The position numbers and the translations under genes were made by a program. The notes under the pieces were generated by a model. It did no database searches. It saw only the letters and a program-made list of their open reading frames with translations, and had not been told where the DNA came from. DNA of 64,000 bases, taken from positions 18,767 to 82,766 of the forward strand of contig VHAT01000005.1 in NCBI GenBank assembly GCA_016872195.1, read 5' to 3'. Positions 38,198 through 41,278 of this stretch are shown here, piece by piece (the first letter of the stretch is position 1; every line of letters begins with the position of its first letter). The DNA is from Sphingomonadales bacterium (lineage in GTDB: Bacteria; Bacteroidota; Bacteroidia; Chitinophagales; Chitinophagaceae).

Positions 38198-39631
38198 CTA
38201 GTCTTTCTTATTTCGATCCTGCTCTCTTTTGGTGAGCGTATTGCCCTCGGGACCACTAATAGTGCCCCGACAATTGTTACTTCCACAACCACAGGTAAAG
38301 GGCTCCATGCGAGGGTCCAAGAAGGTCGCATAGTCTAATGTGAGTTCCTCGTTTGCCATTATGGCCCGTGTCGTGCATACATTCAACCCGTCGAAAACGG
38401 TATTGGCATTACAGCTGTGATTTTGTGGAGCCCAGCTGGCCGGATCTTCGTCCCAAAGGGCAAACACTTCTTCGCTTATTGGATAAGCATAGCGACGAAA
38501 TCGCAACTGCTGTTCGCTGTTCCAACTCTTATCGATATACCGTTTAGTCACCAGCCGTTGTGCGCGCTCTTCGCCGCAGTAGATCACTTCGCCTGCCGCT
38601 ATGTTTCGGGTGGCATAAATCCCGTAGCCCGATATGGAATCTCCTTTTACATAGTAGGGCTTTTGCTTTCGTTGATGGCGCGCAATACCCTCATTGATGA
38701 TCTGCTCTAAAAAGCCACGCTTGCCCGCAGGGTCGTAATTAAGTATATAATCGGCCGACCCCTCGTATCCATCCTCATAAAACACAGAGCAGGTTAGGTT
38801 CATTTCCAAAAAATAAAGCTCGCCCTTGTTATTAACCCGAAAATCGAGCCGCCCATATCCTACACAACCAGCCGTAATAAATATTTTTTTGCTCGCGTCG
38901 CGTAGTGCTAGCTCGAGCGCAGGGTCGTTGCAGGGTATATTCGAAGCGGGGTGAAGCGCCGATGTTTTTAGCGCATAGGTCTTAAATGCATCTCCCTCCG
39001 GAAAAATATATTCTACCGGCTTGTAGACAATACAATCGCCGGGCTTGCTGTCGGCGGCAACCAATACAGTAAACTCGCGACCCTCAATATACTCTTCGAT
39101 CAACACGCGATCGAATTCTTCCAAAAGGGATCGACATTTATTTTCGAGCGCTTCTTTGTCTACGACCAACGAATCTCTCCCCACACCCAGGCTGTCACCC
39201 GCATAGGCTGGCTTAACAAAAAGAGGAAAACGAAGCGCAGACAACACGGATTCTATTTCAGAAAGGTGGGTAATTGCTCGATATGCTGGGGTAGGAACAT
39301 CCTCACAATAGGATACATACTTCATCAACTCTTTGGGAAGATCATATACGCGAGAAGGGGGGCCGGTAAAGGGAAGGTTGAGTGTTTCGAGAGCATAGAT
39401 CACGTCTACCCCGGGCACCTCCCAATCGGGATAACCCTCGCAAAGGTTGACAAAAATATCGTACTGCTTTTTTGATAACGCTCGTAGCTGCTTGTGAGTA
39501 GTAAGCTTATTTAAAAAGACGTGGTCTACTTCGGCACCGGGTAATAGGCGAGCAAGATTCCGGGGTGGATCATAATTCTTATAATCTACTCCCGTTGTCG
39601 AATAATCCGGTTGCAACACACACACTCTCAC
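38198..39631 (-). CDS. Fusion protein: N-terminal Ddl-like ATP-grasp ligase + C-terminal SET domain with post-SET Cys motif
   Basis: FPLFVKPAYAGDSLGVGRDSLVV, RVLIEEYIEGREFTVLV, GRLDFRVNNKGELYFLEMNLTC; then GYGIYATRNIAAGEVIY, NHSCNANTVF, NEELTLDYA, CGCGSNNC. Confidence 0.88.
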   Translation of the reverse strand: MRVCVLQPDYSTTGVDYKNYDPPRNLARLLPGAEVDHVFLNKLTTHKQLRALSKKQYDIFVNLCEGYPDWEVPGVDVIYALETLNLPFTGPPSRVYDLPKELMKYVSYCEDVPTPAYRAITHLSEIESVLSALRFPLFVKPAYAGDSLGVGRDSLVVDKEALENKCRSLLEEFDRVLIEEYIEGREFTVLVAADSKPGDCIVYKPVEYIFPEGDAFKTYALKTSALHPASNIPCNDPALELALRDASKKIFITAGCVGYGRLDFRVNNKGELYFLEMNLTCSVFYEDGYEGSADYILNYDPAGKRGFLEQIINEGIARHQRKQKPYYVKGDSISGYGIYATRNIAAGEVIYCGEERAQRLVTKRYIDKSWNSEQQLRFRRYAYPISEEVFALWDEDPASWAPQNHSCNANTVFDGLNVCTTRAIMANEELTLDYATFLDPRMEPFTCGCGSNNCRGTISGPEGNTLTKREQDRNKKD

Positions 39632-40767
39632 TATACAGCTTTTGCTTTTTTACTTTTGATGGCTTGTGGCATTTCGGCCCGGGTAATGGCATCGAACAAA
39701 ATAGCTTCAATAACTTTTGAGTAGCTGATCTTGGATGCTTTGATGATGGCCCCTATAGAGGTATAGTTTTCGTCTTCGCTAAGTCCGCATTGCGCGTTGG
39801 CCTCCAGTACATAGAGCTGGCCAGTATCGCTGTCTTGTCTAATGTCGATTCGTGTATATCCCCTTCCGCCCAGGGCGGCATACGCCTCGAGGCTTAGTTG
39901 TTGCAGTTTTTTTCGGAGTGTGGCGGAAACGGGGCCATACTCATAAAAATTTTCTTGTTGGGGCATGGGGGCTTCGTCTTCATATATTTCCCAAAGCCGG
40001 TCAAAAGAAAGAAAACGTTCTGTGTCGGGTAAAGACGGATGAAATAGTCTTTCGACGGGTTCATATACCCTACATCCGGGAAGATGGTTAGAAGACCCGG
40101 TTATAAAGGTGGTGAACTCGGGTCCCTTTACGAACTTCTCTACAAAAAGACCGTCGGCTAGCAGGTTCCAGCCCCGATATCCTGTTGATAACTCTTTTAC
40201 GCGTTGGTGTAACTCCTCTTCGCTATTCACCACGTTTTTTACTGAAACCCCCATGCTTCCGCCCGATACGGCCGGTTTGATGATCATCGGGGTGCCCACC
40301 CGCCCACATACCCCTTTTAAAGAAGAGGGGCGCCCACTGATCAACTTCCAAGGGGCTGTCGATACACCGGCCTTATCAAAAGCCCGCTTCATGGGTATTT
40401 TTGAGGTGGTAATATTATAAAAGTGCTGGTCCGAGCCAGTATAAACCAGCCCATGCTCTTGCAGGGCGTCTATTACCGATACGCCGGGTGCACCATTTAT
40501 TTCATCTCCATCACAAAGGTTTAGAACAAGGGGTTGGTGCTTCTTTCCGGTTTTTGCAATACTGGCAATCGTGGTCCTAAAATTTTTCAGGGTTACGGGT
40601 GTCCAAGTCCAACCCACGCCTAATTCTGAAAAAACAACCTCATACTCTTTTATACTGTGTGTAAAGTCGTAGTAGTGAGAAAGGTTGGGGTCGTTGGTTT
40701 CCAGCTCGGGGGCTAAAACCCAAACATGATAAGCGGAGAGGTCAACGGGGGGGGTGCTGTGCTTCAT
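39631..40767 (-). CDS. Ddl-like ATP-grasp ligase
   Basis: TPMIIKPAVSGGSMGVSVKNVV, GLFVEKFVKGPEFTTFI, GYTRIDIRQDSDTGQLYVLEANAQCGLSEDENY. Confidence 0.87.
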   Translation of the reverse strand: MKHSTPPVDLSAYHVWVLAPELETNDPNLSHYYDFTHSIKEYEVVFSELGVGWTWTPVTLKNFRTTIASIAKTGKKHQPLVLNLCDGDEINGAPGVSVIDALQEHGLVYTGSDQHFYNITTSKIPMKRAFDKAGVSTAPWKLISGRPSSLKGVCGRVGTPMIIKPAVSGGSMGVSVKNVVNSEEELHQRVKELSTGYRGWNLLADGLFVEKFVKGPEFTTFITGSSNHLPGCRVYEPVERLFHPSLPDTERFLSFDRLWEIYEDEAPMPQQENFYEYGPVSATLRKKLQQLSLEAYAALGGRGYTRIDIRQDSDTGQLYVLEANAQCGLSEDENYTSIGAIIKASKISYSKVIEAILFDAITRAEMPQAIKSKKAKAV

Positions 40768-40771
40768 TCGA

Positions 40772-41278
40772 TCAGGCCACTTTTTTGCGGGCTTTACGGG
40801 TAAGGCGCTGTGTGATGTAATCGGTAAACCGATACTTTGTTACTTGCTCCCGGTTTAGAAAGGACGCGCCCCTGACCTCGCCAATGCAAGAGGGGGTTCC
40901 ACAAAAACAGCGAAAGGGTTGTTGCATTTCCCACTCGGTGGAGGGATAAAAAAACCCAAGCTCTTCACCTGCGGCAATAGGTGTAAGCGCGACCAACTTC
41001 ATGGTAGTGGTATCAAAAAAACAATTGGGTTCACAACTGTGGTTGATGTACTGCAAATAAGAAGGTTGCAGTGTGATGTGCTTGTTGGTTCCGGTTTGCA
41101 CAGTCAAATACGTTGGTCTCGAAGAAATACTTCCTGAACCAAACGAAGCAATTTCTTCTCCTTGTTTGTAGGCGCGTTTTGTAAAAAAACAACGTTGCTG
41201 ATTAGTCTGATTCAGTCTGGTTTCTGCAAAACCGTGATCTTCTACCAGCTGGTAGTGTGTTATGAGTTCGGCTGTCAT
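40772..41278 (-). CDS. Stand-alone SET domain protein
   Basis: RCFFTKRAYKQGEEIASFG, INHSCEPNCFFD, PIAAGEELGFFYPSTEWEMQQPFRCFCGTPSCIGEVRG. Confidence 0.87.
   Translation of the reverse strand: MTAELITHYQLVEDHGFAETRLNQTNQQRCFFTKRAYKQGEEIASFGSGSISSRPTYLTVQTGTNKHITLQPSYLQYINHSCEPNCFFDTTTMKLVALTPIAAGEELGFFYPSTEWEMQQPFRCFCGTPSCIGEVRGASFLNREQVTKYRFTDYITQRLTRKARKKVA

Follow-up and report, generated by a model that had tools for sequence, protein, structure and literature searches.

A 64,000-nucleotide stretch of contig VHAT01000005.1 (assembly GCA_016872195.1, deposited as Sphingomonadales bacterium and placed by GTDB in the Chitinophagaceae), referred to here as the window, carries three closely packed minus-strand genes encoding a standalone SET-domain protein (gene 1), an ATP-grasp ligase of the Ddl superfamily (gene 2), and a second such ligase joined to a SET domain of its own (gene 3, the fusion). 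We propose, at a probability of about 0.5, that this operon directs the ribosome-independent synthesis, and in many species the export, of a small methylated amide or dipeptide. The proposal draws on the conservation of the unit, on the linkage of a transporter gene in relatives, and on the relationship of gene 1 to BurB, a SET-domain S-methyltransferase that acts on free methionine (PMC12542666).

In the pathway that we infer, including its small-molecule substrate, the order of its steps, the group that is methylated and export, the SET enzymes would move a methyl group from S-adenosylmethionine onto an amino acid or amine, with gene 1 methylating the side chain of a free amino acid in the BurB manner. 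One or two Ddl-like ligases would use ATP to convert a carboxylate into an acyl-phosphate and couple it to an amine, and the fused ligase:SET protein would both ligate and methylate the same molecule, once each. The product, most simply a dipeptide or an amino-acid conjugate, would then be carried across the membrane in many relatives by an ATP-binding cassette (ABC)-type membrane protein.

Organization of the operon

An earlier note on this DNA had described three minus-strand genes with a 4-nucleotide gap (40772/40767) between the first two and a 1-nucleotide overlap (39631) between the second and third, and the open reading frames of the window lie at precisely these coordinates (Table 1). 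Pfam matches to all three products agree with the SET, Ddl-like ligase, and Ddl-like ligase plus SET assignments made there. The motifs that it listed are also present: NHSCEPN (residue 79) and CFCGTPSC (124) in gene 1, NHSCNAN (404) and CGCGSNNC (447) in the fusion and, in the ligases of gene 2 and the fusion, respectively, KPAVSGGSMGVS and KPAYAGDSLGV, with E-A-N (322-324) and E-M-N (276-278). The SET module of gene 3 possesses the GYG, NHSC, E/T/D/Y and post-SET CxCx4C motifs, and the GTG start of this gene is supported by its relatives, which begin MKVCVLQPDYS at the same residue. Across the window and three close relatives, the ratio of nonsynonymous to synonymous substitution rates (dN/dS, NG86) is 0.04-0.08 for each of the genes in all comparisons with an estimable dS; for the fusion gene, saturation at synonymous sites left two comparisons with no ratio. 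The three genes are real and under purifying selection, with a signal far beyond chance.

Table 1. Position and assignment of the operon's genes and of the modules of gene 3.
Feature	Coordinates (strand)	Description	Basis
Gene 1	40772..41278 (-)	Standalone SET-domain protein, 168 aa, BurB-like	Pfam SET 9.5e-12
Gene 2	39631..40767 (-)	Ddl-superfamily ATP-grasp ligase, 378 aa	Pfam PF07478 Dala_Dala_lig_C 1.7e-16
Gene 3 (fusion)	38198..39631 (-)	ATP-grasp ligase + SET, 477 aa, GTG start	Pfam PF07478 1.6e-20 and PF00856 5.6e-10 in one chain
ATP-grasp module of gene 3	38666..39631 (-)	Residues 1-322	PDB Ddl alignment over residues 80-280
SET module of gene 3	38243..38656 (-)	About residues 326-463	Pfam SET; KMT2/ASH1L/BurB matches

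Relationship of gene 1 to BurB

The best PDB match of gene 1 is BurB, both with the single sequence (1.1e-11) and with a profile (5.6e-19; the best histone methyltransferase reaches 6.8e-9). Its AlphaFold model (pLDDT 92.6) likewise has BurB (9l4v/9l4t) as its best Foldseek match, at 1e-9 versus 3e-6 for histone methyltransferases. Gene 1, like BurB/MSMT of Burkholderia thailandensis (PDB 9l4t, 9l4v), encodes a small single-domain bacterial SET protein with a post-SET Cys cluster, and the two proteins share a 13-residue spacing and Y-x-S-T-E following the Tyr at the catalytic position. Unlike BurB, gene 1 sits with ATP-grasp ligases and not with dimethylsulfoniopropionate (DMSP) or polyketide genes. 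On sequence and predicted fold, gene 1 is nearest to small-molecule SET enzymes of the BurB type, and this closeness makes small-molecule methylation appear likelier than protein-lysine methylation. The SET proteins of the operon carry the hallmarks of the superfamily, namely NHxCxxN, a Tyr at the catalytic position and the post-SET zinc Cys residues, and the identity of these domains in the earlier note stands; its premise that they methylate lysine amines is less apt here, since gene 1 lies nearest to a free-methionine S-methyltransferase.

The fused SET domain, by contrast, matches KMT2 and BurB about equally. With KMT2/MLL, ASH1L and SETD2 it shares the GxG (GYGIYA, residue 335), NHxCxxN, EELTxDY and post-SET CxCx4C motifs; unlike these enzymes, however, the SET proteins of the operon are bacterial, one is joined to a ligase, and gene 1 lacks the SET-N GxG motif.

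Several other SET genes were encountered. A BurB orthologue on an Eleftheria terrae plasmid (L163, 5782-6303; E 1.7e-73), annotated as a protein-lysine methyltransferase, lies in a cluster of polyketide synthase, TauD, aminotransferase and aldehyde dehydrogenase genes. A plasmid of Tabrizicola piscis (L165, 1124-5582) bears a SET gene in a run with genes for a GHMP kinase, a pyridoxal phosphate (PLP) enzyme, a DMT transporter and an alanine racemase, likely another small-molecule SET context. The third SET protein of the window's genome (L167, G000:C7, 1167-1634) has no link to the operon, and its gene overlaps the start of an opposite-strand gene that is MgtE-like by sequence. Finally, a short BurB-like SET gene (L170, G043:C19, 5900-7339) immediately follows GNAT-like and PP-loop-like ATPase genes, both identified from their sequences.

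The ATP-grasp ligases and the housekeeping Ddl

Both ligases possess the ATP-grasp fold with its Lys, glycine-rich loop, Asp and E-x-N, and K164, E210, D308, E322 and N324 of gene 2 are invariant in an alignment of 18 orthologues. The best Foldseek matches to the AlphaFold model of the fusion (pLDDT 87) are Ddl folds, with E down to 3e-20. Structure prediction, which the earlier note had proposed as a check, thus gives a SET fold for gene 1 and Ddl folds for the fusion, with the catalytic residues intact. Gene 2 and the fused ligase are paralogues that share 27% identity over 309 aa, and the gene 2 profile also matches BacD at 4.6e-5.

The two ligases resemble Ddl and other ATP-grasp amino-acid ligases, such as BacD, in their fold, glycine-rich loop, E-x-N and conserved Arg/Asp. 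Unlike Ddl, they miss the NCBIfam Ddl cut-offs (scores in the range of 80-90 bits, 90 for gene 2 and 83 for gene 3, versus 243-246), one of them is joined to a SET domain, and both have an NLC(E/D)G motif in place of the Ddl signature HGxxGEDG, which we take to be PS00843. Additionally, the PDB Ddl alignment places Thr223 where Ddl has Tyr. A genuine Ddl encoded elsewhere in the window's genome passes several NCBIfam Ddl cut-offs and contains HGxxGEDG, providing a positive control. Identity with the housekeeping Ddl was rejected on the missed cut-offs, the absent signature and the presence of this separate enzyme. Known members of the Ddl superfamily join amino acids, and by sequence the ligases of the operon belong to the same superfamily but are not the cell's Ddl. 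The FLSFDRLWEIYEDExPMP stretch of gene 2 is nearly invariant and rich in acidic and aromatic residues; we would guess that it suits a cationic, methylated substrate.

Distribution and conservation of the unit

At least part of the fusion is kept by 28 of the 34 genus relatives searched, 27 of them with a best match under 1e-130, whereas in the other, G028, a contig edge truncates the gene; six of the 34 are without an intact fusion, among them G014, which has only a remnant. The order of all three genes is kept across the genus. In a collection of species genomes, 352 stretches match the fusion patterns and 347 encode a fusion relative, so that the trio is conserved well beyond the strain, and the earlier suggestion that similar SET/Ddl neighbourhoods exist elsewhere is borne out across Bacteroidota.

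Neighbouring genes were analysed in the best 80 of the 347 fusion loci, which are the closest ones (60–85% identical), with genes in fetched loci called by longest open frame and not by a gene finder. The named taxa among these 80, 'uncultured bacterium' titles aside, are all Bacteroidota and mostly Chitinophagaceae; named genera with the fusion include Terrimonas, Sediminibacterium, Hydrotalea and Ferruginibacter. An ATP-grasp gene adjoins the fusion in 69 of 71 assessable loci, and a SET gene lies upstream of it in 57 of 67. Even samples yielded the fusion in 40 of 299 genomes at the order level (E 1e-40 or better; one, G100, has an ATP-grasp protein without SET) and in 17 of 396 at the phylum level, while the class-level sample contained no fusion outside the family. 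Outside the class, the fusion occurs in three other families and in one genus with many matches that carries bchI and bchD, the two genes on which our label Chlorobium-like rests.

The distant fusions, which are 37-39% identical to that of the window, are found in other classes of the phylum, including the Chlorobium-like genus. Four loci of this genus (L151, L152, L155 and L161) have the order SET, ATP-grasp:SET, ABC exporter with ATPase, and a further short SET, and another distant locus (L158) has the order fusion, ABC membrane gene, SET. A standalone ATP-grasp gene is absent from those four loci and was not seen in the loci read outside the order. From Chitinophagaceae to the Chlorobium-like genus, K140, S147, G149, E179, GREFT (184-188), R261, D263, E276 and N278 of the fused ATP-grasp are invariant, as are, across classes, N404, H405, C407, E428, T431, D433, Y434, C447, C449 and C454 of the fused SET. 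Taken as a whole, these loci have the fusion as the constant part of the system, the SET gene and transporter as its recurrent partners, and gene 2 as a paralogous addition. Genes 1 and 2 are themselves fused in one genome (G019/L036), a second and independent SET:ATP-grasp fusion. Because the fusion is kept in other classes and such a joining arose twice, ligation and methylation probably belong to one pathway; to this extent the idea in the earlier note that both act on one substrate gains support.

Variant arrangements were also observed. A DUF1295 gene occupies the usual place of gene 1 in one lineage. In L028 (G016:C28, 3036-3854), gene 2 has been shortened to 272 aa and a gap separates it from the fusion, through either a frameshift or loss of the standalone ligase, and a Terrimonas sp. 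locus (L085, 3583-8376) has no standalone SET gene, with gene 2 and the fusion lying in a one-strand run between genes for a kynureninase-like PLP enzyme and orotidine monophosphate decarboxylase. At the distant locus L148 (G532:C3, 5040-10791), the fusion is on the same strand as genes for an N-formylglutamate amidohydrolase, a MATCAP carboxypeptidase and a glutathione-synthetase-like ATP-grasp protein, possibly a second peptide-processing context.

Viral contigs searched with the fusion contained no relative, so viral cargo is not supported; a plasmid search returned Ddl-type ligase matches only and no fusion; and PADLOC matched neither the three proteins nor the transporter, so a defence system is not supported. 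Co-evolution judged by distance correlation was discounted, since the values for fusion and ATP-grasp (0.60) and for fusion and transporter (0.60) do not exceed that for fusion and mnmG (0.77). Synthesis of N-methyl-bacillithiol, a methylated metabolite of Chlorobium, was rejected because NmbA belongs to the Class I Rossmann methyltransferases (PMC12719100).

Transporter linkage and flanking sequences

In 31 of the 71 assessable relatives (34 of all 80 fetched), the next gene downstream of the fusion, in the same orientation, is a PF13748 (ABC_membrane_3) gene. A survey of 59 relatives yielded 16 PF13748 genes, spread over 14 genomes that all belong to the genus, and 15 of these 16 genes lie directly 3' of the fusion; in G014, about 2.7 kb separates the sixteenth from a decayed remnant of the fusion. 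The transporter is specifically linked to the operon in relatives, and in the Chlorobium-like genus a full ABC exporter stands beside the fusion. The statement in the earlier note that no transporter lies beside the trio is correct for the window, but it does not hold for the system as a whole. In G014 (L168, G014:C1, 6247-10065) the operon is apparently decaying, with the transporter kept, unrelated genes in between, and a 74-aa fusion remnant near the contig end.

The same note had seen no precursor peptide beside the trio, and indeed the window has only 84 nucleotides before gene 1 and 31 after gene 3, which leaves no room for one in its operon. DUF2480 and PpiD-like genes flank the operon upstream on the same strand, and a convergent gene that we take from its sequence to be mnmG lies downstream; since the flanking genes differ between relatives, none of these is part of the system. 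Rfam and tRNA scans gave no matches, and a promoter and terminator scan rose barely above shuffled sequence and is not used as evidence.

Alternative functions

Several observations weigh against synthesis and export of a small methylated product. The likeness of gene 1 to BurB is remote when the window's protein is taken singly (36% identical across 104 aa to an orthologue of BurB), and because the methionine contacts in BurB are main-chain (PMC12542666), the residues do not reveal the substrate. The fused SET retains the GxG motif and matches BurB and histone lysine methyltransferases about equally well, so that a lysine in a peptide or protein could still be its target. PF13748 is absent from the window's own 1.9-Mb genome, so export by such a protein cannot be a general step, and no similarity is detectable between the exporter of the Chlorobium-like genus and the membrane protein of Chitinophagaceae. 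Furthermore, one distant fusion lies near peptide-processing genes.

The alternative that survives best, although we consider it unlikely, is protein modification, in which the ligases would add amino acids to a target protein in the style of RimK or tubulin ligases and the SET domains would methylate its lysines. The full canonical signature of the fused SET and its KMT2/ASH1L matches are consistent with this, and some ATP-grasp enzymes modify proteins; such members have reportedly been predicted for other clades. Human TTLL12 also combines a SET-like domain with an ATP-grasp-type TTL domain in one chain and is reported to catalyse neither histone methylation nor tubulin ligation itself (PMC3520985). 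The ligases of the operon, however, are of the Ddl type with invariant catalytic residues and not of the RimK or TTL type, gene 1 is BurB-like, ABC transport genes are linked, and, in a further contrast with SET lysine methyltransferases, the loci examined have no conserved neighbouring gene for a protein substrate.

Quite improbable is a pathway for a ribosomally synthesized and post-translationally modified peptide resembling the graspetides, a class surveyed in PMC8939145, in which the precursor would be encoded elsewhere, the ligases would form lactam or lactone links, and the SET enzymes would methylate the peptide. Such systems commonly contain ATP-grasp ligases, a methyltransferase and an ABC exporter, and graspetide and other ATP-grasp peptide systems share with the operon a ligase, a transporter and a tailoring enzyme. 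They differ from it in their precursor peptide, since the window has no space for one and the fusion-to-transporter gaps elsewhere are only 44-189 nucleotides; in their ligases, those of the operon matching Ddl best; and in the use here of SET as the methyltransferase. Moreover, the linked transporters lack a peptidase domain.

A methionine or sulfonium pathway like that of bur, with gene 1 making S-methylmethionine for DMSP or a DMSP-derived product, would fit the BurB relationship but is very improbable, as the aminotransferase, aldehyde dehydrogenase and polyketide genes of the BurB orthologue are not conserved beside the trio in the 80 loci and two Ddl-like ligases would be left unexplained; gene 1 could still make S-methylmethionine as a substrate of the ligases. 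Least probable of all, despite Ddl/Van-type enzymes being the best structural matches, is cell-wall remodelling or resistance through alternative D-Ala-D-X ligases, given the widely missed NCBIfam Ddl/Van cut-offs, the lack of HGxxGEDG, Thr223 in place of the Ddl Tyr, the genome's own Ddl, and a fused SET and linked transporter that it would not explain.

Implications

Under ribosome-independent synthesis of a small methylated amide or dipeptide, a bolder and doubtful extension sees in the fused protein the first bifunctional ATP-grasp:SET synthetase, and in the operon the source of a new class of exported quaternary ammonium or sulfonium di- or tripeptides common to Chitinophagaceae and green sulfur bacteria. 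Our search of the open-access literature, which did not cover paywalled comparative genomics, found no account of the system; comparative surveys of ATP-grasp and SET proteins by Iyer, Aravind and colleagues (about 2009-2011) may mention SET/ATP-grasp neighbourhoods.

The operon is kept in hundreds of Chitinophagaceae genomes and in green sulfur bacteria, and it joins two chemistries in one protein. With a BurB-like SET protein set beside peptide ligases, it provides a clear way to ask whether the SET proteins of bacteria, for which protein-lysine methyltransferase is the routine annotation, have small molecules as substrates. The metabolite that it makes would be new, whether exported or intracellular, and, should the exported di- or tripeptide reading be true, many bacterial 'lysine methyltransferase' SET proteins would be metabolite enzymes.

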